A DNA stretch of 54,403 nucleotides from Thiomonas sp. (GTDB taxonomy: Bacteria > Pseudomonadota > Gammaproteobacteria > Burkholderiales > Burkholderiaceae_C): contig DAICZP010000139.1 in NCBI GenBank assembly GCA_027311065.1, forward strand, positions 1-54,403, written 5' to 3'. The notes beneath the pieces are model-generated. The model had not been told where the DNA came from. It saw only the letters and a list, made by a program, of their open reading frames with translations, and searched no databases. The translations under genes were made by a program, and so were the position numbers. The first letter of the stretch is position 1. The number at the start of each line of letters is the position of its first letter. Below are positions 12,390 to 44,300 of this stretch, piece by piece.

Positions 12390-13979
12390 ATGCAACATAC
12401 CTGTCAGGCCCTGGGCGGCATGGTCGTGGCTCCCCACCATCTGGCGGCGCAGGCCGGGCGCGACGTGCTGCGCGACGGCGGCAACGCGGTGGAGGCGATG
12501 GTGGCTGCTGCGGCCACCATCGCGGTGGTTTACCCGCAGATGAACTCGATCGGCGGCGACGCCTTCTGGCTGGTCCACCGCCCGGGCGAGGCGCCCTGGG
12601 CCATCGACGCCAGCGGGCCGAGCGCGGCGCTGGCCGACCGCGGGTTCTACGCCGGGCATGCGACGATTCCGAGTCGCGGCCCGCAGGCTGCGCTGAGCGT
12701 GGCCGGCACGCTGGGGGGCTGGCGCCTGGCGTTGCAGCGAGCGGCCGGCATGTCGGCTGCACCACTGCCGCTGGAGCGCCTGTTGCGCGACGCCATCGGT
12801 CACGCCCGTCACGGCATCGTGGTCAGCGCCAGCCAGGCTGAGCTGACAAGTGCCAAGCTCGCCGAGCTGCGCCCGGTGCACGGGTTCGCCGACGTGTTCC
12901 TGCGCGACGGGCAGCCGCCGCGCGTCGGGGATATCGTGCGCCAGGGCGCGCTCGCCGACACTCTCGCGCATCTGGCGCGCCATGGCCTCGACGATTTCTA
13001 TCGCGGCAGTCTGGGGGCGATGATCGCTGCCGAACTCGAGCGCATTGGCAGCCCGCTGCGCCGTGCCGACCTGGTCGGCTACGAGGCCGAGTCGGTCGAG
13101 CCGTTGCAGCTGCGTCTGGCCGACTGCACGTTGTACAACCTGCCACCTTCGACCCAGGGGTTGGCCTCGCTGATGATTCTGGGCATTTTCGAGCAGCTCG
13201 GCGTGCGCGAAGGCGAAGGGTTTGCGCACCTGCACGGCCTCATCGAGGCGACCAAGCGCGCGTTCTCGGTACGGGCACGCGTGGTCACCGACCGCGGCCG
13301 CGTCCCGCTCGACCCGCAGGGTCTGCTGCACCCCGACCGGCTGGCCGAACTGGCTGCGGGGATCGATCCCGCGCGCGCGCTGCCGTGGCCGCAACCAGCC
13401 GCCCCCGGCGACACCATCTGGATGGGCGCGATCGACCGCGACGGCTGTGCGGTCAGCTTCATTCAGAGCACCTACTGGGAGTTTGGCAGTGGGGTGGTGC
13501 TGCGCGATACCGGCATCACATGGCAGAACCGCGGCATCAGCTTTTCGCTCAACCCCGCCGACCTCAACACCCTGGAGCCGCGGCGCAAGCCCTTCCACAC
13601 GCTGAACCCGGCGCTGGCGCTGTTCGACGACGGGCGCTGCATGCCCTACGGCACGATGGGGGGCGAGGGCCAGCCGCAGACCCAGGCGGCGGTGTTCACG
13701 CGCTATGCGCGTTTTGGCATGTCGCTGCAGCAGGCTGTCGATGCGCCGCGCTGGCTGCTCGGACGCACCTGGGGAGACGCCAGCACCAACCTCAAGCTGG
13801 AGAGCCGGTTCGACCCCGCGCTGGTGCGCCAGCTGCGCGACGCCGGCCACGAGGTCGAGTTGTTGACACAGCCCTACAGCGACACCATGGGGCATGCCGG
13901 GGCGCTGGTGCGCCACCCCGACGGTCGCATCGAGGGCGCCCACGACCCGCGTAGTGACGGCGGTGCAGCCGCCGTGTGA
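12390..13979 (+). CDS. Gamma-glutamyltransferase family protein
   Basis: 529 residues. It has the Ntn-hydrolase architecture of gamma-glutamyltransferases: the large-subunit start APHHLAAQAGRDVLRDGGNA, MNSIGGDAFWLV, and the autocleavage site GDTIWMGAIDRDG with T342 as likely nucleophile, then PNNF-like and TMGGEGQPQTQ segments. Classical enzymes read TTH after the cleavage site; here the Thr is followed by Ile-Trp, as in the diverged YwrD-like branch, so activity on glutathione is not certain. There is no signal peptide, which suggests a cytoplasmic enzyme, unlike periplasmic Ggt. It is the last gene of the OFA/DUF1275 operon and is followed by a terminator-like hairpin. Confidence 0.85.
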   Translation: MQHTCQALGGMVVAPHHLAAQAGRDVLRDGGNAVEAMVAAAATIAVVYPQMNSIGGDAFWLVHRPGEAPWAIDASGPSAALADRGFYAGHATIPSRGPQAALSVAGTLGGWRLALQRAAGMSAAPLPLERLLRDAIGHARHGIVVSASQAELTSAKLAELRPVHGFADVFLRDGQPPRVGDIVRQGALADTLAHLARHGLDDFYRGSLGAMIAAELERIGSPLRRADLVGYEAESVEPLQLRLADCTLYNLPPSTQGLASLMILGIFEQLGVREGEGFAHLHGLIEATKRAFSVRARVVTDRGRVPLDPQGLLHPDRLAELAAGIDPARALPWPQPAAPGDTIWMGAIDRDGCAVSFIQSTYWEFGSGVVLRDTGITWQNRGISFSLNPADLNTLEPRRKPFHTLNPALALFDDGRCMPYGTMGGEGQPQTQAAVFTRYARFGMSLQQAVDAPRWLLGRTWGDASTNLKLESRFDPALVRQLRDAGHEVELLTQPYSDTMGHAGALVRHPDGRIEGAHDPRSDGGAAAV

Positions 13980-32055: not shown

Positions 32056-32321
32056 ACCGCGGCCGCGGCACCGCCGCACCGCGCTGCATTGTCCATCCCT
32101 GGCCGCTCCCTGCCATGCAAGCGTCCCGCGAGGCGTTTCCGGCAGGTGATGTTGGCGACAGGGGCTGATTTTCGGCGGCATCCGGCTGCTGTTTCATGCG
32201 ATGTCGGGCTGGCACGCGAAATGCTCGCATGCGAGAGGCGCTCGGCGCGAACCCGGCGTGTGGTCACGCACGCGCGCGTTCGCGCCATCAACCCCGACCC
32301 TCACGTGAAAGGAATCTTGAA

Positions 32322-32765
32322 ATGAACCGCAACGACGTCACCGAGGCGATCATCGCCGCCAGGATCGCCAAGGGTATCAAGTGGGCCGATGTGGCCAAGC
32401 GCCTTGGTCTGTCGAAAGAGTGGGTGACCGCGGCCTGTCTGGGCCAGATGACACTCGACGCACAACAAGCGACGGTGATCGCTGAAATATTCGGCCTGTC
32501 TGGCGAGGCGGTGGCGCTGTTGCAGGAGGTTCCCTACAAAGGGTCGCTGCCGGCCGCGGTGCCCACTGACCCTCTGATCTACCGGTTCTACGAACTTGTC
32601 AGCGTCTACGGCACCACGTTCAAAGCGCTGATCCACGAGGAGTTCGGCGACGGGATCATGTCGGCGATCGATTTCAGGATGGATTTGCAGCGCGAGCCGG
32701 ATCCCAAGGGAGACCGCGTGAATATCGTTCTGTCGGGAAAGTTCCTTCCCTACAAGACGTATTGA
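32322..32765 (+). CDS. cynS: Cyanate hydratase (cyanase)
   Basis: 147 residues, typical length. The catalytic triad aligns with E. coli R96/E99/S122: R88, E91 and S114 (LIYRFYELVSVYG, DGIMSAIDF). The N-terminal domain is helical. It converts cyanate and bicarbonate to ammonia and carbon dioxide as a decamer. I chose the ATG at 32322, which follows AAAGGAA; the longer frame adds 42 unlikely residues. Neither a cynT carbonic anhydrase nor a cynR regulator is adjacent, so it stands alone here. Confidence 0.96.
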   Translation: MNRNDVTEAIIAARIAKGIKWADVAKRLGLSKEWVTAACLGQMTLDAQQATVIAEIFGLSGEAVALLQEVPYKGSLPAAVPTDPLIYRFYELVSVYGTTFKALIHEEFGDGIMSAIDFRMDLQREPDPKGDRVNIVLSGKFLPYKTY

Positions 32766-34030: not shown

Positions 34031-34299
34031 CGTGGCGGGGCATGTTTCAGAGAAGGCGTGATCGGGGATGGCAAGGGCGTTGTGCGGACCATGACGGGGG
34101 CATCCACGCCCGCATACGCACACCATTGGTGCATGACCGTGCGCGCGCACCAAGACGGAGACCCGCGGTGCCATGATGTGGGGCGCGCGCACGGTGCCCT
34201 GATTTTCGTGCCGCACCGATTTTGCGAAGGTTCCTGGCCCGCTACTTGCATTCCCTGAGACTGAAGCCGCGAATGCGGCACCCGATGCGCGAGACCACG

Positions 34300-35721
34300 A
34301 TGCGTTTTTTTGACGAGATGTGCGATGCAGCCGGCACAGTGCGCGGGCATTATGCGCCGTACGAAGGCTGGCTGAAACATCAGCCAGCCGATGTGATGCA
34401 GGCCAAACGTGATGAAGCCGAATTGATATTCCGGCGGGTTGGCATCACTTTTGCCGTTTATGGCGACGACGCCGGCACCGAACGTCTCATTCCCTTCGAC
34501 CTCATTCCGCGCATCATTCCCGCGTCGGAATGGACGACCCTGCAAGCGGGACTGGTGCAAAGGGTCGGCGCCTTGAACCGCTTCATTCACGACATCTACC
34601 ACGGACAGGACATCCTTCGCGCGGGGATCGTGCCGCGCGAGATGGTGTCGGGGAACAAGCAGTTCCGGCCCGAGATGATGGGTTTGAACCTGCCGCATCA
34701 GGTGTACGCGCACATTGCGGGTGTCGACGTTGTGCGTGCCGCCAATGCAGATGGCCAAGGTCAGTATTACGTACTGGAAGACAACCTGCGCGTCCCGTCG
34801 GGGGTCAGCTACATGCTGGAGAACCGGCGCATGATGATGCGGCTGTTTCCCGACCTTTTTTCGCGCTACGCCATCGCTCCGGTTGCGCATTATCCGGACC
34901 TGTTGTTGCACACATTGCGCGAGGTCGCCCCGCAGGGCGTGGATGACCCGACCGTGGTGGTGCTGACGCCGGGGATGTACAACTCTGCATACTTCGAGCA
35001 TGCATTCCTCGCACAACAGATGGGGGTCGAACTGGTCGAGGGCGGTGATCTGTTCGTGAAGGACGAATTCGTGTACATGCGAACGACGCGCGGCCCGCAG
35101 CGTGTCGATGTCATCTACCGACGCATTGACGATGACTTCATCGACCCCCTGGTATTCCGCGCGGACTCCGCGCTGGGATGCGCAGGTCTGATGGATGCCT
35201 ATCGCGCAGGCAACATCAATCTGGCGAACGCCCTCGGTACCGGAGTGGCGGATGACAAGTCGATCTACCCGTACGTTCCGGCGATGATCGAGTTCTATCT
35301 CGGCGAAAAGCCCATTCTGACCAACGTTCCCACATACCAGTGCCGCGAACCCGAAGCGCTGGCCTACGTGCTGGCGCACTTGCACGAGCTGGTTGTCAAG
35401 GAGGTGCATGGCGCCGGCGGCTACGGCATGCTGGTCGGTCCGGCCGCCAGCCGTGCCGAAATCGCGTCCTTCGCGGAACGGCTCCGTGCAGCGCCTGCAG
35501 GCTACATCGCGCAGCCCACGCTGGCACTGTCGACCTGCCCTACGTACGTCGAGTCGGGCATCGCCCCCCGCCACATCGACTTGCGCCCGTTTGTCCTGTC
35601 TGGTCGCAGCGTCGCACTCGTTCCTGGCGGACTCACCCGCGTCGCGCTCGGCGAGGGCTCGCTGGTCGTCAACTCCTCCCAGGGTGGCGGCACGAAAGAT
35701 ACCTGGGTTCTCGAGCGCTGA
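34300..35721 (+). CDS. Circularly permuted type 2 ATP-grasp protein
   Basis: 473 residues from the ATG at 34300, which gives the family start MRFFDEMCDAAGTVRGHY. Key motifs: YYVLEDNLRVPSGVSYMLEN (about 156-175), VVLTPGMYNSAYFEHAFLA, LANALGTGVADDKSIYPYVP, KEVHGAGGYGMLVGP and RHIDLRPFVLSG. Permuted ATP-grasp enzymes are predicted to join carboxylates to amines through acyl phosphates (peptide ligases). First gene of a five-gene run with alpha-E and transglutaminase genes, the context from which a peptide synthesis or modification system has been predicted. Substrates are unknown. Confidence 0.88.
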   Translation: MRFFDEMCDAAGTVRGHYAPYEGWLKHQPADVMQAKRDEAELIFRRVGITFAVYGDDAGTERLIPFDLIPRIIPASEWTTLQAGLVQRVGALNRFIHDIYHGQDILRAGIVPREMVSGNKQFRPEMMGLNLPHQVYAHIAGVDVVRAANADGQGQYYVLEDNLRVPSGVSYMLENRRMMMRLFPDLFSRYAIAPVAHYPDLLLHTLREVAPQGVDDPTVVVLTPGMYNSAYFEHAFLAQQMGVELVEGGDLFVKDEFVYMRTTRGPQRVDVIYRRIDDDFIDPLVFRADSALGCAGLMDAYRAGNINLANALGTGVADDKSIYPYVPAMIEFYLGEKPILTNVPTYQCREPEALAYVLAHLHELVVKEVHGAGGYGMLVGPAASRAEIASFAERLRAAPAGYIAQPTLALSTCPTYVESGIAPRHIDLRPFVLSGRSVALVPGGLTRVALGEGSLVVNSSQGGGTKDTWVLER

Positions 35722-35756
35722 AGCGCTGCCCGCGCCCCCGACTGGAAACCCGCACC

Positions 35757-36701
35757 ATGCTCAGCCGCACTGCCGATCACCTGTTCTGGATGGCCCGCTA
35801 CACCGAGCGCGCGGAGAACACCGCGCGTATGCTCGATGTACAAGTGCAGCACGAATTGCTGCAGCAATCACGGAGCGATGCCGGCAGTGGATGGGCCGCA
35901 GTGCTGGGGCTGTCCGAGTTGAGCGCCGACTACCGCGCGCGTCATGGCGATGTCACCGCGCGGCGCGTGCTGGACTACATGGTCCGGGATCCGGAAAACC
36001 CGTCGTCGATTTTCAGCTGCCTGCGAGCGGCTCGCGAAAGTGCACGTGCGGTACGCGGCGCCATCACGACCGAGACCTGGGAAACGGTCAATCAGACCTG
36101 GCTTGAACTGATGCGCATGTTGCACCAGCCGCTGCACGATCCAGGCGCACTGTTCGAGTGGGTCAAGTATCGTTCGCACCTCACGCGCGGGGTCACCGCG
36201 GACACCATGCTGCGCGACGAGGCGTTTCACTTTTTGCGTCTTGGCACGCTGATCGAGCGTGCCGACAACACCGCACGTCTGCTTGACGTGAAGTTTCATG
36301 CCCCTCAGGTGGAACAGGCCCAGACTGCCGAGGCACGGATGCAGGAGCAGGATTTCTACCACTGGTCGGGCGTACTGAGGTCGGTGTCGGGCTTCGAGAT
36401 CTACCGCAAGTTCTATCGCTATGCCATCACCCCGGAACGCGTGGTCGAGCTGCTGATTCTGCGGCCTGACATGCCACGCTCGCTGGCGGCGTGCACCATG
36501 GACATCATCGACACGCTGACCAAGGTGGCCAACCCGCAGTCAGCCGATACGCTGCGCAGCGCCGGCATGCTCGATGCCGAGTTGCGTTACGGTCGCATCG
36601 ACGACATCATGGCCACGGGGCTGCACGCTTACCTCACGCGCTTTCTGTTGCGTATCAACGATCTGGCCAGCCGCATCAGCCAGGATTTTCTCGCCGCGTG
36701 A
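35757..36701 (+). CDS. Alpha-E domain protein
   Basis: 314 residues, all-helical. The start MLSRTADHLFWMARYTERAE is diagnostic, with a repeated helical unit RLGTLIERADNTARLLDVKF near residue 160-180. Alpha-E domains occur only with permuted ATP-grasp enzymes in operons or fusions, and probably act as partner subunits. It lies 35 bp after the ATP-grasp gene. The fusion at 40149 in the same cluster supports direct contact between the two domains. Confidence 0.88.
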   Translation: MLSRTADHLFWMARYTERAENTARMLDVQVQHELLQQSRSDAGSGWAAVLGLSELSADYRARHGDVTARRVLDYMVRDPENPSSIFSCLRAARESARAVRGAITTETWETVNQTWLELMRMLHQPLHDPGALFEWVKYRSHLTRGVTADTMLRDEAFHFLRLGTLIERADNTARLLDVKFHAPQVEQAQTAEARMQEQDFYHWSGVLRSVSGFEIYRKFYRYAITPERVVELLILRPDMPRSLAACTMDIIDTLTKVANPQSADTLRSAGMLDAELRYGRIDDIMATGLHAYLTRFLLRINDLASRISQDFLAA

Positions 36702-36786
36702 AACGCGGTCGCCGCCCCAGACGGTCAAACGCCGGACACTGTCCAGATCCCGTCTTCTCCCGCCTTCATTTGCGTCCCGATCCCGC

Positions 36787-39700
36787 ATGTCGATCCACGT
36801 TGCCCTGACCCATGTCACTCGCTACCGCTTCGATCGCGCGGTGAACCTTTCCCCGCATGTGGTGCGACTGCGGCCGGCGCCGCACACCCGCAGCCGCGTA
36901 CTGTCCTATAGCTTGCGCATCGAGCCCGAGCTGCATTTCGTCAACTGGCAACAAGATGCTTTCGCCAATTACCTGGCGCGGGTGGCTTTTCCAGAGCGCA
37001 CGACGGAGCTCGTCGTCACGGTCGACCTCGTGGTCGAAATGGCGGTCTACAACCCGTTCGACTTTTTCCTTGCGCCCCAGGCTGAGCATGTGCCATTTGC
37101 ATATGATGCAGCGCTGCGCGCCGACCTCACCCCCTACCTCGCGCACGAACCGCTGACACCAAGGCTCGACGCACTGCTCAACAGCATCGACCGTCGCCGG
37201 CGCCGTACCGTCGACTTCCTCGTCGACGTCAATCAGCGTCTGCACGCGGAGGTGCGCTACCTGATCCGCCTGGAGCCGGGGGTCCAGAGCCCGGAGCAGA
37301 CACTTGAACGCGGCAGTGGCTCATGCCGTGACAGCGCCTGGCTGCTGGTGCAACTTCTGCGCCACCTCGGCCTCGCGGCACGTTTCGTTTCCGGCTACCT
37401 GATCCAGCTCACCGCCGACGTCAAGCCGCTCGAAGGTCCGAGTGGTGCGGCGCAGGATTTCACCGACCTGCACGCGTGGTGCGAGGTCTACCTGCCGGGC
37501 GCCGGGTGGATCGGTCTCGACCCCACGTCCGGCCTGTTTGCGGGCGAAGGCCATATTCCCCTGGCTTGCACGCCCCAGCCTGCTGGCGCCGCTCCCGTCG
37601 AGGGTGCGGTCGATGCTTGCGAGGTCGTGTTCGATCACGAGATGCGAATTACCCGCTTGCGCGAATCGCCACGCGTGACCCTGCCATACCGCGAGGAGCA
37701 GTGGCAGCACGTGTTGGAGCTGGGGGCGCAAGTTGACGAGCGGCTGCGCGCCGGCGATGTCCGGCTGACGCAGGGCGGCGAGCCGACGTTCGTCGCGCCC
37801 GGTGACCCGGATGCTCCGGAATGGAATACCGACGCCATCGGTCCCACCAAGCGCGGCTACGCCGCAGCGTTGATTGGGCGGCTGGCGGCGCGTTACGGCT
37901 CCGGCGGCTTTCTTCACTTCGGGCAGGGAAAGTGGTATCCGGGCGAGCAACTGCCGCGCTGGGCGCTGACAGCCGTCTGGCGCCGCGACGGACAGCCCTG
38001 CTGGCATGATCCGCGGCTGTTCGCGGACGAGCGCGCAAGTGGGAGCGCCACTCCTGAGGACGCGCGCATGTTCATGCTTGCGCTCGTGGATGCCCTGGGC
38101 GTCGAACCCAGGCATGTGTGCGAGGGTTACGAAGACACCTGGTACTACCTGTGGCGCGAACGACGGCTTCCAGTGAACGTCGATCCTTTCGACTCGCGGG
38201 TCGAAGATGAGCTTGAGCGCGCGCGTCTGCGCAAGGTGTTCGAGCAGGGGCTGCGCAAGGTCATCGGTTACGTGTTGCCACTTCGTCGCGACGCCGGCGT
38301 GCCGACGCGGCGTGATGGACGCTGGGTCTCCGGGCCCTGGTTCATGCGCGACGGGCGTCTTTACCTCATTCCGGGGGATTCGGCGATGGGCTGGCGGTTG
38401 CCGCTCGACACCCTGCCCTGGGCGCGCGAGTCGGAGCGCCAGTTCGACATTCCCCCGGACCCGTTTTCGAGTTTTCCACCGCTGGCACCGGCGTCGCGCT
38501 TGCGCGTGCGCGACCAACCCCTGGACGCAGCCGGCGCCTCGGTGCCGCGGGGCCTGCCCGAAGCAGTCCCGGAGCGGTTCAGCTCGGCGGGTTCCACGAT
38601 ACGCACTGCCCTTTGCGTCGAAGTACGCGATGGTGTGCTGCATGTGTTCATGCCCCCGCTGGCCAGCGCCGATGACTACCTCGATCTGCTCGCGGCGGTG
38701 GAGGTGACGGCGCAGCGGCTGCGCGCTGCCATCGTTCTGGAGGGTTACCCGCCTCCGCGCGACCCGCGCCTCGAGCAACTGCAAGTGACTCCCGATCCGG
38801 GGGTCATCGAGGTCAACATTCATCCGGCGCATGACTGGGAGCAATTGGTCGAACACACCGAATTCCTGTATCAAGCCGCGTTCGAGACCCGGCTCGGTGC
38901 GGAGAAGTTTCAGCTTGACGGCCGTCACACCGGGACCGGCGGCGGCAACCACGTGGTGCTCGGGGGCGCCACCCCTGCCGACAGCCCGTTCCTTCGCCGC
39001 CCCGACCTCCTCGCCAGCCTCATTGCCTATTGGCACAATCACCCGAGTCTGAGTTACCTGTTCAGTGGTCTGTTTCTAGGCCCGAGCAGCCAGGCGCCAC
39101 GTCTTGACGAGGCACGCGACGATCAGGTGTACGAGCTTGAGATCGCGCTGGCAGAATTGCGTGCGAACCGCGTTCCGCCGGACGGCGAAGTGCCGCCGTG
39201 GCTGATTGATCGAAGCCTGCGCAACCTTCTCATCGACGTCACCGGCAACACCCACCGCGCCGAGTTCTGCATCGACAAGCTCTACAGTCCCGATAGCGCG
39301 ACCGGACGACTGGGTCTGCTCGAACTGCGCGCTGTCGAGATGCCCCCGCATGCGCGCATGAGTGTCGTCCAGCAGTTGCTGCTGCGAGCCCTGGTGGCGC
39401 GTTTCTGGGAGCAGCCTTACGAGGCACGTCTGCAGCGTTGGGGCAATGCGCTGCACGACCGTTTCATGTTGCCCACGTTCATCGCCATGGATTTCGAGGA
39501 CGTGCTGGACGAGCTTCGTCAGTGCGGATTCGGTTTTGACGACGCCTGGTTCGCGCCGCATTTTGCGTTCCGGTTTCCGCTACTTGGAGACCGTGCGGTG
39601 CGCGGCGTGCAGCTTGAACTGCGCATGGCGCTGGAGCCATGGCACGTGCTGGGCGAAGAGGGTTCGGCCGGCGGGACCGTGCGCTATGTGGACTCTTCGC

Positions 39701-40113
39701 TGGAGCGTCTCGAACTCAAGGTCAGCGGCCTGACCGATCATCGTCATGTCGTCACCGTGAATGGTCGCGCGGCGCCGCTGCAGCCGACCGGGCGCACCGG
39801 CGAGTATGTGTGCGGGGTCCGGTATCGCGCGTGGCAGGTGCCCTCGGCGCTGCATCCGGCGATCGGGGTGCACGCCCCGCTGACCTTCGATCTCGTCGAT
39901 ACCTGGGCGCAACGTTCGCTCGGCGGATGCCGCTACCACGTCATGCACCCAGGAGGGCGCAGCTACGAGACGTTTCCGGTCAATGCCTACGAAGCCGAGA
40001 GCCGCCGGATGGCGCGGTTCGAGCGCATCGGGCATACACCAGGGCGTATGGTGGTGGCGCCGTGCCGACCCAGCCTGGAGTTTCCTTCCACGCTGGATCT
40101 GCGCCGGCGCTGA
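36787..40113 (+). CDS. Transglutaminase-like protein fused to DUF2126
   Basis: 1108 residues from the ATG at 36787; the longer frame overlaps the alpha-E gene. Residues 1-90 are the bacterial transglutaminase N-terminal beta domain. The transglutaminase core follows with the triad C180 (ERGSGSCRDSAW), H229 (TDLHAWCEVY) and D245 (IGLDPTSG). From about 325 (VRLTQGGEPTFV) to the end runs DUF2126. There is no signal peptide, so it is probably cytoplasmic. The core can cleave or join amide bonds; in this cluster it may hydrolyse or cross-link the product of the ATP-grasp ligase. Function unproven. Confidence 0.88.
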   Translation: MSIHVALTHVTRYRFDRAVNLSPHVVRLRPAPHTRSRVLSYSLRIEPELHFVNWQQDAFANYLARVAFPERTTELVVTVDLVVEMAVYNPFDFFLAPQAEHVPFAYDAALRADLTPYLAHEPLTPRLDALLNSIDRRRRRTVDFLVDVNQRLHAEVRYLIRLEPGVQSPEQTLERGSGSCRDSAWLLVQLLRHLGLAARFVSGYLIQLTADVKPLEGPSGAAQDFTDLHAWCEVYLPGAGWIGLDPTSGLFAGEGHIPLACTPQPAGAAPVEGAVDACEVVFDHEMRITRLRESPRVTLPYREEQWQHVLELGAQVDERLRAGDVRLTQGGEPTFVAPGDPDAPEWNTDAIGPTKRGYAAALIGRLAARYGSGGFLHFGQGKWYPGEQLPRWALTAVWRRDGQPCWHDPRLFADERASGSATPEDARMFMLALVDALGVEPRHVCEGYEDTWYYLWRERRLPVNVDPFDSRVEDELERARLRKVFEQGLRKVIGYVLPLRRDAGVPTRRDGRWVSGPWFMRDGRLYLIPGDSAMGWRLPLDTLPWARESERQFDIPPDPFSSFPPLAPASRLRVRDQPLDAAGASVPRGLPEAVPERFSSAGSTIRTALCVEVRDGVLHVFMPPLASADDYLDLLAAVEVTAQRLRAAIVLEGYPPPRDPRLEQLQVTPDPGVIEVNIHPAHDWEQLVEHTEFLYQAAFETRLGAEKFQLDGRHTGTGGGNHVVLGGATPADSPFLRRPDLLASLIAYWHNHPSLSYLFSGLFLGPSSQAPRLDEARDDQVYELEIALAELRANRVPPDGEVPPWLIDRSLRNLLIDVTGNTHRAEFCIDKLYSPDSATGRLGLLELRAVEMPPHARMSVVQQLLLRALVARFWEQPYEARLQRWGNALHDRFMLPTFIAMDFEDVLDELRQCGFGFDDAWFAPHFAFRFPLLGDRAVRGVQLELRMALEPWHVLGEEGSAGGTVRYVDSSLERLELKVSGLTDHRHVVTVNGRAAPLQPTGRTGEYVCGVRYRAWQVPSALHPAIGVHAPLTFDLVDTWAQRSLGGCRYHVMHPGGRSYETFPVNAYEAESRRMARFERIGHTPGRMVVAPCRPSLEFPSTLDLRRR

Positions 40114-40148
40114 ACGCGGCTCGCGTGGCGCGTGCCACAATCACCGGC

Positions 40149-42704
40149 ATGGCAAGTCTGTTCCCCTATGAATCCGGTGCCCGGCTGAGCGCACTGGCCC
40201 GCGATCTGGCGGCGCCGGTGCCGGCCGGCCATTGGGATGTGCTGCGCGGCACCTCCTCCGACGGTCGCGGCGGAGGACCCTTGCGCGGCTGTTGGGAGCG
40301 GTTTTTCGACCTCCTTGGTGGCGACGGTTTCGATGAGTTGGACGCGCGTGAGGCCAGCCTGCGCCAGCACATTCTTGACGACGGTGTCACCTACAACGTG
40401 CATGGTGACAGCGAGCGCGCCGCGCGCAACTGGTCCGTTGATCTGTTTCCGCTGATCGTCGATGCCGCTGACTGGGCCCGCATCGCTGCCGGCGCTGCCC
40501 AGCGCGCCGCGCTGCTTGACGGCATTCTGCGCGATGTCTATTGCGGCGAACAGCATGTGTTGGCGCGCGGCCTGCTGCCGGCCGCGCTGGTGCACGGTCA
40601 TCCCGGCTACCTGCGTGCGCTGCACGGCCACCGCCCGCCAGGTGACGTCTGGTTGCACGTGGCGGCATTCGATCTCGCCTGTGGTCCCGACGGCATCTGG
40701 CGCGTGATCAATCAGCGCGTCCAGGCGCCCAGCGGGTTGGGTTATCTGCTGCAGAACCGGCTGCTGGTGTCGCGTCTTTTCCCCGATGCCTTCGCTGCGC
40801 TGCGCGTGCAACGCCTGGCCGCCAGCTACCGCCTGTTGATGGACAACCTCCAACGCCTGGCGCCCGGCGACGGCGCGCCGCGTGTGGTCCTTCTTACGCC
40901 CGGCCCGTACAGCGAAACGTATTTTGAACAGGTATTTCTTGCGCGCTACCTCGGCATCACGCTGGCCGAGGGCAGCGACCTCACGGTACGCGAGGATCGG
41001 CTTTACCTGAAGACGGTGCGTGGACTGGAGCCGGTGCACGCGGTGCTGCGCCGACTCGACGACAGTTTCTGCGACCCGCTGGAGCTACGCCCGGATTCCA
41101 TGTTGGGGATTGCCGGTCTGCTGCAGGCCGTGCGTGCTGGCAATGTGCTGCTCGCCAACGCGCTCGGAGCCGGCTTCCTTGAGTCGCCGGCACTGCAAGG
41201 TTTTCTGCCCAAGCTGTGCCTGTCGCTGCGAGGCGAGGAGTTGTTGTTGCCATCGCTTCCGAGTTGGTGGTGTGGCGAGGCCGGCGTGTGCCGGGCTCCG
41301 CTGGAGGATTTGCGCAACTGGGTGGTCAAGCCAGTGCATGCCGAGTGCGGCTTCGATGCCACGGTGATGGCCAGCATCGATGCCAACGATCTCCCGTCCT
41401 GGCGTGCGCGGGTGCTGGAGCAGCCCGATGAAGTGACGCTGCAACGCTACATGCCGTTGCCGCAGGTCCCGGTATGGCGCGATGGGCGCATGGGCGCGCG
41501 CGCCGCGATGTTGCGCGTGTATGCGCTCGCCGATGGCAATGGTGGCTGGCGTGTGCTCCCCGGCGGACTGGTTCGCACCGCCACGCACGGCGGAAACACC
41601 GTGTCGATGCAGCACGGCGGCAGCAGTCAGGACGCCTGGGTCATCACCGGAGAGGCGGTGGATGCATCGACGCTGCTGCCGGCGCCCATGCGTCCGCAGG
41701 ATGTGATCGCGCGGCACCGTGTCGTCACCAGCCGCGCTGCCGAAAATCTGTTCTGGGCTGGGCGTTACTGCGAGCGGGCTGAACACGCGGCGCGGCTGGC
41801 GCAGTTGACGCTGCGGGCGATCGCCGAGGACGACGATCTCAGGGCCGGCCCCGGCGCCATGTTGGACACGTGGTGCCGAGAGGCGGCCCTCGTTTCCGCC
41901 GAATCGCCGCCGCTGACCAACAACCGCAGCGCATTCGCGCGCAGCGTGGTCGAGGGGCTGGAGCAAGGCGCGCACGCCGGCGGCCTGCTGCAAAGCCTGC
42001 GTGCCATGGGACACGCCGCGGCGCAGGTGCGTGAGCGCCTGGGCGGCGAGCATCGCCAATGGATCGCGTCGGCAACGGCGTTGCGTCTGATGCCGAATGC
42101 GACAGGGCGTGAGGCGCCGAGCGCCCTGCAGGCGTTGCAGGGTCTCGAGCGACTGAGCGAGCTGCTCGGCGCCATCACTGGCGCGCAGACCGACCGCATG
42201 ACACGTGACGACGGCTGGCGTCTGCTCAGCATCGGGCGTCACATCGAGCGTCTGACCCTGCTTGGCGAAGCGCTACGGGTGGCCTTCGCCAGTGGCGGCG
42301 TGCATGCCGACAGCGGCTTCAACCATTTGTTGGCACTGTTCGACAGCACCATCACCTACCGCGCGCTCTACCAAAAGCGCCTGGAAGTTCCGCCGCTGCT
42401 CGATTTGCTGATGCTCGACCGCGAGAATCCCCGCAGTCTGGGCTGGGTGGCACAGACGCTGATCGCGCGCATACGCAAGCTGCCAGGGCGGCGCGAGGAC
42501 ATCGACGAGTTGCTCGAGATGGCACCCGATCCCGACGGCTGGCAGCTGACCGAGCTTTGCGCACACGGGCAGGACGGGCGTCATGCCTGGCTCGAGAACA
42601 GCCTGGCAAACGCGGTGCAAGGCGCCTACCGGATTTCCGACGAAATCAGTCTGCGCTACTTCGCGCATGCGGCCGCGCCGGCGCGCTCGCTGGGTGGCTA
42701 TTGA
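40149..42704 (+). CDS. Fused permuted ATP-grasp / alpha-E protein
   Basis: 851 residues. Residues 1-505 are a second permuted ATP-grasp domain (VINQRVQAPSGLGYLLQN, LLTPGPYSETYFEQVFLARY, VKPVHAECGFDATV, MLRVYALADGNG). From about 525 (TSRAAENLFWAGRYCERAEH) the rest is an alpha-E domain. The equivalent first pair is two separate genes, so the fusion indicates that the two parts work as one complex. The ATP-grasp half differs from the first copy, with several loops replaced, so a different substrate is likely. It starts 35 bp after the transglutaminase-DUF2126 gene. Confidence 0.87.
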   Translation: MASLFPYESGARLSALARDLAAPVPAGHWDVLRGTSSDGRGGGPLRGCWERFFDLLGGDGFDELDAREASLRQHILDDGVTYNVHGDSERAARNWSVDLFPLIVDAADWARIAAGAAQRAALLDGILRDVYCGEQHVLARGLLPAALVHGHPGYLRALHGHRPPGDVWLHVAAFDLACGPDGIWRVINQRVQAPSGLGYLLQNRLLVSRLFPDAFAALRVQRLAASYRLLMDNLQRLAPGDGAPRVVLLTPGPYSETYFEQVFLARYLGITLAEGSDLTVREDRLYLKTVRGLEPVHAVLRRLDDSFCDPLELRPDSMLGIAGLLQAVRAGNVLLANALGAGFLESPALQGFLPKLCLSLRGEELLLPSLPSWWCGEAGVCRAPLEDLRNWVVKPVHAECGFDATVMASIDANDLPSWRARVLEQPDEVTLQRYMPLPQVPVWRDGRMGARAAMLRVYALADGNGGWRVLPGGLVRTATHGGNTVSMQHGGSSQDAWVITGEAVDASTLLPAPMRPQDVIARHRVVTSRAAENLFWAGRYCERAEHAARLAQLTLRAIAEDDDLRAGPGAMLDTWCREAALVSAESPPLTNNRSAFARSVVEGLEQGAHAGGLLQSLRAMGHAAAQVRERLGGEHRQWIASATALRLMPNATGREAPSALQALQGLERLSELLGAITGAQTDRMTRDDGWRLLSIGRHIERLTLLGEALRVAFASGGVHADSGFNHLLALFDSTITYRALYQKRLEVPPLLDLLMLDRENPRSLGWVAQTLIARIRKLPGRREDIDELLEMAPDPDGWQLTELCAHGQDGRHAWLENSLANAVQGAYRISDEISLRYFAHAAAPARSLGGY

Positions 42705-42714
42705 GGCCGATGCG

Positions 42715-43638
42715 ATGGACGACGCGCAACTGACCAGCCACGGTGTGTTGTACGAGGTACGCCATGACACGCGTTACGCCTACGAGACGTCGGTTGAGCT
42801 TGCCTACCACCTGGCCCACCTGCGGCCGTTGACCATACGCCGCGTGCAGGCGTGCGAGTATCACGACTGCCGGATCGACCCCGCCCCGGCACACAGCAGC
42901 AGCAGCGTCGACGTACTGGGAAATGTACGCCTGTATTTCTCCTGCTATGCCCCCCACCAGACGCTCGTGGTGAGCGCGCGCAGCCGTGTGCGGGTCCAGG
43001 CGCCCGCAGACCCGGACTGGGACGGCAGCGAGGCCTGGGAGTTTGTGCGCAACCGTCTCATCTACCGCGCCGGGCAGCCCGGCGAGCGCGCTGCGCAATT
43101 CGCATTCGGAAGTCATTTTGCGCCGCGTTTCGCCGACGCCGGCGACTACGCCGCACCCAGTTTTCCGCCTGGGCGGCCGCTGTTGCAGGGTGCCCTGGCG
43201 TTGATGCATCGCATTCATGCCGACTTCACCTATGACCCCGCGAGTACCGAGGCGCACACGCGAGCGCCGCAGGCGCTGCAGCTGCGTCACGGGGTTTGCC
43301 AGGACTACGCGCATGTCATGTTGTCGGCCTTGCGCAGCCTGGGGTTGGCCGCGCGGTACGTCAGCGGCTATTTGCGTTCGCGTCCGCCGCCGGGGCAGCA
43401 GCAGTTGGTCGGTGCCGACGCGTCGCACGCCTGGGTGGAGGTCTGGTGCCCGGCCAACGGCTGGGTCGAGTTCGACCCCACCAACAACCGTCGCCCGGCT
43501 GACGACTACGTGCGCCTTGCGCTGGGGCGCGACTTCGCCGACGTGTCGCCGCTGCGAGGGGTGATCCGCGGCGGTGGCGGCCATACGCTGGAGGTCGCCG
43601 TGCGCGTCAGCCCCGTGGGGACGCAAGTCACTGGGTGA
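42715..43638 (+). CDS. Transglutaminase-like protein
   Basis: 307 residues from the ATG at 42715, 10 bp after the fusion gene. N-terminal beta domain (LYEVRHDTRYAYETSVELAY), then the core with triad C195 (RHGVCQDYAHVM), H238 (DASHAWVEVW) and D254 (VEFDPTNN). No signal peptide. It is a compact version without DUF2126 and the last gene of the cluster. It presumably works with the ATP-grasp/alpha-E fusion as the larger transglutaminase works with the separate pair. Confidence 0.88.
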   Translation: MDDAQLTSHGVLYEVRHDTRYAYETSVELAYHLAHLRPLTIRRVQACEYHDCRIDPAPAHSSSSVDVLGNVRLYFSCYAPHQTLVVSARSRVRVQAPADPDWDGSEAWEFVRNRLIYRAGQPGERAAQFAFGSHFAPRFADAGDYAAPSFPPGRPLLQGALALMHRIHADFTYDPASTEAHTRAPQALQLRHGVCQDYAHVMLSALRSLGLAARYVSGYLRSRPPPGQQQLVGADASHAWVEVWCPANGWVEFDPTNNRRPADDYVRLALGRDFADVSPLRGVIRGGGGHTLEVAVRVSPVGTQVTG

Positions 43639-43751: not shown

Positions 43752-44300
43752 ATGGCATTGAAGGCGACCATTTACAAGGCGGAGTTGCAACTCGCCGACA
43801 TGGACCGGAACCACTATGAGGATTTGGCACTCACCATTGCCCGCCACCCGTCGGAAACGGATGAGCGAATGATGGTGCGGGTGCTCATGTACGCGCTGTA
43901 CGCGCAGGAAGGAATCGCGCTCACAAAGGGCTTGTTCGACGTCGACGAGCCAGAAATCTGGGTGAAGGACCTGACCGGTGCGATCAAGCTGTGGATCGAT
44001 ATCGGTCAGCCCGACGAGGCGAGGCTGCGCAAGGCCTGCGGCCGTGCCGACCAGGTCGTCGTGGTCTGCCACGCCAGCAGCTGCGAGGTCTGGTGGAAGC
44101 AGATCGAGGGGCGCCTGACCCGTCTGCGCAACCTCACCGTGCTGCGCCTGCCAGCGGTGGCGGCGCAAGCGCTGGCAGCGCTGGCCGCGCGGACGATGCG
44201 ATTGCAATGTCTGGTGCAAGACGGTGCCATGACCCTCAGCACCGAGGCGATGGCGGTGGACATTGCGCTCGAGGCCCTCAAACGGGCGGCCGTCGGCTGA
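43752..44300 (+). CDS. YaeQ-family protein
   Basis: 182 residues, full length. YaeQ pattern: ALKATIYKAELQLADMDRNH, RHPSETDERMMVRVLMYALY and PEIWVKDLTGAIKLWIDIGQ. The fold is PD-(D/E)XK nuclease-like, with E and D residues in EPEIWVKD and LWIDIGQP at the expected place; a nuclease activity is not established. It is transcribed alone, 113 bp after the transglutaminase. Confidence 0.92.
   Translation: MALKATIYKAELQLADMDRNHYEDLALTIARHPSETDERMMVRVLMYALYAQEGIALTKGLFDVDEPEIWVKDLTGAIKLWIDIGQPDEARLRKACGRADQVVVVCHASSCEVWWKQIEGRLTRLRNLTVLRLPAVAAQALAALAARTMRLQCLVQDGAMTLSTEAMAVDIALEALKRAAVG

Follow-up and report, generated by a model that had tools for sequence, protein, structure and literature searches.

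A candidate nitrogen-starvation operon in Thiomonas sp. joining a predicted ATP-grasp ligase to a putative pseudo-ATP-grasp

One run of genes in Thiomonas sp. encodes ATP-grasp, alpha-E and transglutaminase proteins twice over. The run lies in a 54,403-nucleotide stretch of DNA, the whole of which was analysed and is here called the window (contig DAICZP010000139.1 of assembly GCA_027311065.1, forward strand), and comprises five intact genes, A to E, that all read on the plus strand, head to tail, and are separated by 35, 85, 35 and 10 base pairs (bp). An earlier, sequence-only reading had described them as two equivalent sets; its coordinates, lengths and gaps were confirmed, and its domains were recovered by Pfam, but the equivalence was not supported. 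Our own reading, to which we give about even odds (a probability near 0.5), is that the run belongs to the predicted ATP-grasp/alpha-E/transglutaminase peptide-modification systems and serves as a nitrogen-starvation operon, in which A and B would be the active ligase, C, D and E would form a second unit, and D would be a pseudoenzyme. The genes are:

34300 to 35721, plus strand: A, circularly permuted ATP-grasp of active type, 473 residues (Pfam CP_ATPgrasp_2, E = 2.7e-167), EDNLR motif at residues 160-164
35757 to 36701, plus strand: B, separate alpha-E protein, 314 residues (Pfam Alpha-E, E = 1.1e-95)
36787 to 40113, plus strand: C, transglutaminase domain joined to DUF2126, 1108 residues (Pfam DUF2126, Transglut_core and Bact_transglu_N)
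40149 to 42704, plus strand: D, fused ATP-grasp/alpha-E, 851 residues (Pfam CP_ATPgrasp_2, E = 4.8e-131; Alpha-E, E = 5.4e-52)
42715 to 43638, plus strand: E, short transglutaminase with intact triad, 307 residues (Pfam Transglut_core and Bact_transglu_N)

The two ATP-grasp proteins

In glutathione and glutathionylspermidine synthetases, the Glu and Asn of an ExN motif bind metal ions. The protein of gene A, aligned over its full length with Protein Data Bank (PDB) entry 3N6X (E = 6.5e-216), reads EDNLRVPSG at this metal site, whereas D, aligned with the same entry (E = 1e-77), has NQRVQAPSG there. The meaning attached to ExN is general knowledge of these enzymes, because a profile search of PDB sequences with A, in which a glutathione-synthetase alignment of the motif was sought, found 3N6X alone. 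All catalytic triads had earlier been called intact, which is correct for the Cys-His-Asp triads of the transglutaminases in C and E but overlooked the NQRVQ of D where A has EDNLR.

Copies of both proteins were counted in a pooled set made up of the window, 80 named loci and 60 fetched neighbourhoods, a few rows of which may be of the same species, after removal of A matches that scored no more than 400 bits and D matches no longer than 350 residues. The E, N and R of EDN(L/A)R were present in all 76 A copies. The full ExN was absent from every one of the 128 D copies, N162 being present in none, and residue 162 was Arg in 109, His in 15, Ser in 2, Pro in 1 and Gln in 1, while at position 164 Arg was present in 3 and Gln in 119. 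Since the replacement is itself conserved (Arg or His in nearly all copies), the ATP-grasp half of D looks like an old, conserved pseudo-ATP-grasp that lacks the ExN metal motif. The glycine-rich loop GGYG, present in 76/76 A copies, was gone from most D copies, and D427 was present in none of the 128; D250, D282 and N310 were conserved in all of them. In a tree of the ATP-grasp sequences, a single branch with support of 1.0 divided the copies into the 76 of A and the 128 of D, and midpoint rooting left A as one clade and D not.

The ratio of non-synonymous to synonymous differences (pN/pS) against four close relatives was 0.27-0.31 for the ATP-grasp half of D, compared with 0.25-0.30 for C and 0.17-0.24 for A, which argues that this half of D is under constraint and not in decay. 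Entropy percentiles within D, where low values mean conservation, were 0.68 at position 160, 0.22 at 162 and 0.16 at 164; the replaced columns are thus at most moderately conserved. A structure model of D (predicted local distance difference test, pLDDT, 79.6; predicted template modelling score, pTM, 0.61) matched 3N6X best (template modelling score 0.85 by target), and its closest folds also include glutathione synthetases, glutathionylspermidine synthetases and YgiC.

The alpha-E half of D was better preserved at its ER pairs, which were kept at 93-100% in the 128 D copies and are both present in the D of this run; D175 and R179 of B, which neighbour the ER pairs, were not preserved in D copies. 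The genome as a whole encodes two alpha-E domains (E of 0.001 or less), those of B and D. The fusion, which had been claimed to show that the two domains work as a complex, is consistent with their acting jointly. Divergent fused ATP-grasp/alpha-E copies, also without ExN, were seen at two further loci, L163 (4904-7084, reading RDHALLPAG) and L164 (5937-7310); no DUF2126 was found in the stretch of L163 that was read.

Gene linkage and nitrogen-type promoters

The arrangement of the genes was examined in the window and the 80 named loci. Of the 66 loci that reach at least 5 kb 5' of D, 60 have C upstream in the same orientation, 52 of them with C no more than 500 bp away, while E lay 3' of D in 76 of the 77 loci with at least 2.5 kb past the D ATP-grasp half, and within 1300 bp of that half in 69. 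The position of A varied: among the 61 loci that extend 9 kb or more 5' of D, 13 have A in line and upstream, 30 have it divergent and one has it downstream, and in 17 it was not seen. Linkage was also counted in a Pseudomonadota panel of 299 genomes, where D meant a match of at least 537 bits to the A1 profile and the initial scoring took no more than a few candidates from each genome; DUF2126 was present in 92, D in 90 and both in 81. Among these 81, 66 had C immediately before D and on its strand, 11 had it on the opposite strand at a distance of up to 3 kb, and 4 showed another placement. DUF2126 occurred without D in 11 genomes of this panel. In a separate 60-genome panel, where the top D matches were of the same genus, all 24 genomes with D also had DUF2126, which was present in 32 overall. 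Strains that carry the run include Thiomonas delicata DSM 16361 (L034) and Variovorax beijingensis (L039).

On these locus and panel counts, C-D-E is usually a unit wherever D occurs, and A-B is a movable partner. The gene neighbourhoods therefore redraw the two sets of the sequence-only reading, in which C had gone with A and B; C is usually beside D, A-B being elsewhere, divergent or in line, and together with the loss of the full ExN from all D copies this leaves the notion of two equivalent sets unsupported. The sets also proved partly unlinked in relatives, as genomes of the same genus were found with A and neither DUF2126 nor D (G008, G017, G018, G019 and G025), and others with A and DUF2126 without D (G003, G006, G020 and G021).

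The transglutaminase triads were counted after omission of matches under set limits of score and length. The Cys-His-Asp triad of C was intact in 108/108 copies, and among 123 copies of E, Cys and His were present in 123 and Asp in 121. DUF2126 is a putative amidoligase by its Pfam name, and the five best Foldseek matches to a model of it, itself a poor one, were glutamine synthetases or close kin (E from 0.039 to 0.19). These weak matches agree with the Pfam name, and the DUF2126 domain of C is treated here as a predicted, glutamine-synthetase-like ligase.

A sigma-54 promoter carries a -24/-12 box, and the consensus used for it, like that for the NtrC dyad, is general knowledge. The box was sought as TGGCAC-N5-TTGC, with GG and GC required, in up to 400 bp before each start codon. 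One lies before A:

34235 to 34249, plus strand: sigma-54 (-24/-12) promoter-like box TGGCCCGCTACTTGC, one mismatch, 50 bp before the start codon of A

With up to two mismatches, a box preceded A in 44 of 45 loci, against 4.4 expected from mononucleotide shuffles, and with up to one mismatch in 29 of 45 (0.41 expected); in 40 of the 44 loci, the best box has its end no more than 120 bp from the start. At up to one mismatch, C was preceded by a box in 38 of 61 loci (0.47 expected), and its distribution followed the gene layout, with 28/30 where C is divergent from A, 10/18 where A was not seen or lay elsewhere, and 0/13 where it is in line; at up to two mismatches, the divergent layout gave 30/30 and C inside the run 1/13. 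Controls at up to one mismatch gave 0/37 for B, 0/79 for D, 5/77 for E and 2.7% for random 400-bp windows. RpoN is encoded in the genome. Related genes of Burkholderia cenocepacia, I35_5080-83, are NtrC- and sigma-54-dependent according to the available text of that study (PMC5491218), and Pseudomonas putida PP_2685 and PP_2688 are listed as 4.4 and 4.0 log2 up on nitrate versus ammonium (PMC8050072, from the portion at hand). The run is probably switched on when nitrogen is scarce. The sequence-only reading, otherwise supported in part, had missed both the promoter and the link to nitrogen.

Upstream of the run, a cyanase gene (cynS) occupies window 32322-32765 and has a sigma-54-like box of its own (32210-32224); three loci of the same genus, L117, L118 and L132, likewise have cynS close to the cluster, and it was not found in L033, L034 and L040.

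Anbu and the alternative readings

Several observations weigh against a nitrogen-starvation operon with C-D-E as its second unit and D as a pseudoenzyme. K367, which we take to be the ATP-side Lys, is present in 89 of the 128 D copies, so that D may still bind nucleotide, and two D copies retain Glu160. D can exist without C, since 9 of the 90 D genomes of the Pseudomonadota panel showed no DUF2126, nor is C bound exclusively to D, since it stands beside A-B without D in all six fetched loci of that type (L113-L118). The model of DUF2126 is of poor quality (pLDDT 60.7), and Foldseek found no match to it at E of 0.001 or less. At up to two mismatches, sigma-54 boxes also preceded E in 30/77 loci and D in 8/79, and occurred in 16% of random windows (B, 0/37), while NtrC-type dyads with up to four mismatches lay upstream of A in 8/45 loci against 5.7 expected and of C in 7/48 against 5.6, showing no clear enrichment over shuffles. 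A published pull-down with Anbu as bait is described, in the part of the report available, as giving no specific partners, and ligation by any of these proteins is not reported in those portions of the literature that were examined.

Anbu, a proteasome-like protease, is central to one alternative, that of protein recycling under nitrogen starvation, in which the ligases would tag proteins or peptides and an unlinked Anbu would degrade or trim them. No Anbu gene adjoins the run, in agreement with the earlier remark that a proteasome-like protease was missing from its neighbours, but the same genome has a sole Anbu match on another contig (G000:C136:102673-103410, which is L173 8674-9411, minus strand). 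Its Pfam Proteasome score is just below the cut-off, and no ATP-grasp, alpha-E or transglutaminase gene of the run's kind was found in the 16 kb fetched around it. Recycling gains from this copy, from the joint presence of D and Anbu in 54 of the 299 genomes, which is above chance with relatedness uncorrected, and from the report that Anbu and ATP-grasp genes of P. putida are under nitrogen control (PMC8050072, in the portion available). It is weakened by the D genomes in which no Anbu was shown, 36 of 90 in the phylum panel (54 having it) and 11 of 14 in the genus (three having it); of these 11, G012 is 100% complete, G011, G022 and G026 are 99%, and the others are incomplete, down to 84%. 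Anbu proteins tested in published work, moreover, are described in the available text as having no amidase activity, and we consider recycling unlikely.

Two other statements about Anbu were tried and rejected. Its absence from the genus, concluded from PF00227, fell because PF00227 misses Anbu copies and an Anbu alignment found the one in this genome. Mutual exclusion of Anbu and D was suggested by the fetched loci, where Anbu was present in 10/64 with A, C and D, in 6/6 with A and C only and in 4/5 with A only; it was discarded because, in the divergent layout, the expected place of Anbu falls outside the fetched locus, and because of the genome-wide co-occurrence given above.

Just as improbable as recycling, in our estimate, is a small-molecule pathway, with a glutathione-like or peptidyl-polyamine-like amide serving as a nitrogen carrier and not as a protein tag. 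The kinship of the ATP-grasp fold to glutathione and glutathionylspermidine synthetases and YgiC would fit such a product, but the fold does not fix the substrate.

Somewhat more doubtful still is that D is catalytic with altered chemistry, the Arg or His at 162 and the Gln at 164 forming a different nucleotide or acyl-phosphate site, for example for nucleotidyl transfer or a phosphate-independent step. The uniformity of the replacement is unlike random decay, the gene is under constraint, and an ATP-grasp with different chemistry, an RNA ligase, has been published, as far as the available part of that report tells; yet the loss of the glycine loop and of D427 goes beyond the re-tooling of a single metal site. 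Two full and independent ligase sets, with D an active ATP-grasp/alpha-E ligase and E its transglutaminase making a product of their own, are very unlikely, as the wide margins by which A and D both clear Pfam, the frequent K367 and the D genomes without DUF2126 are set against the missing ExN in all D copies, the loss of GGYG from most and the adjacency of D to C in most genomes.

Scans of all five proteins against NCBIfam and PADLOC gave no matches, tRNA and Rfam scans of the window found nothing, and no signal peptides were apparent in the run's proteins, as judged by eye. A YaeQ-family gene lies directly 3' of the run (43752-44300), with no counterpart in the 80 named loci by the same search; a gamma-glutamyltranspeptidase gene lies about 20 kb away (12390-13979).

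Proposed mechanism and relation to known systems

If the run is indeed a nitrogen-starvation operon with D as a pseudoenzyme, sigma-54 RNA polymerase would transcribe it from the box at 34235. A and B together would act as an active ATP-grasp ligase, converting a carboxylate to an acyl phosphate that is then joined to an amine. Within the C-D-E unit, C would contribute the predicted glutamine-synthetase-like ligase domain along with its transglutaminase, and E, as another transglutaminase, would transfer, cut or trim the amide. D would not be a second ATP-grasp ligase, its fold being kept and its metal site replaced; most likely its part would be that of a scaffold, or of a subunit that binds substrate or regulates, with its alpha-E domain offered to C and perhaps to A. 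A bolder version is tentative and on balance doubtful: that C-D-E forms a machine of three genes in its own right, widely conserved in Pseudomonadota, with the alpha-E-fused pseudo-ATP-grasp as an obligate, non-catalytic platform for the glutamine-synthetase-like ligase and transglutaminase, carrying out Anbu-independent amide conjugation in nitrogen starvation.

These proposals would affect how the genes are studied. If D is a conserved pseudoenzyme, A-B and C-D-E become the sensible units for assays; the sigma-54 boxes point to a growth condition, and the genomes without an Anbu match suggest that the conjugation half can be investigated on its own. A 2009 study reportedly dealt with the same gene families, including the amidoligase prediction for DUF2126.

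Placement of the run among predicted peptide-synthesis and peptide-modification systems, made already by the sequence-only reading, is upheld by the ExN of A beside the alpha-E of B and by the triads of C and E. Anbu-type systems were described in 2008-2009, and as that reading held, no product or target appeared in the literature found; titles and abstract beginnings among the matches listed report no product for alpha-E, DUF2126 or this ATP-grasp family. An ATP-grasp of the Anbu operon releases phosphate from ATP, in an assay that cannot tell ligation from hydrolysis (PMC6376114, in the part available).

The run can be compared with three known cases. The putative glutathionylspermidine synthase of Methylobacillus flagellatus, 3N6X, is a close sequence relative of A and the top fold match of D, but it reads EDNLR and D does not. 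The B. cenocepacia genes I35_5080-83 encode DUF404/407, DUF403, a transglutaminase and a large transglutaminase protein (PMC5491218, as described in the accessible text); six neighbouring locus names sought in its main text were not found there, and control of a D orthologue is not shown in it. The Anbu operon, described by Valas and Bourne in 2008 and Iyer et al. in 2009 according to the available parts of PMC5666114 and PMC6376114, consists of ATP-grasp, alpha-E, transglutaminase and Anbu genes. It shares with this run the same ATP-grasp, alpha-E and transglutaminase families, and its relatives respond to nitrogen in the published excerpts, but this run has no adjacent Anbu and adds C-D-E, with its DUF2126 domain and pseudo-ATP-grasp fusion. 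The run is, then, a variant of the predicted peptide-modification or peptide-tagging systems that is marked by nitrogen-type promoters and by a conserved, probable pseudoenzyme.

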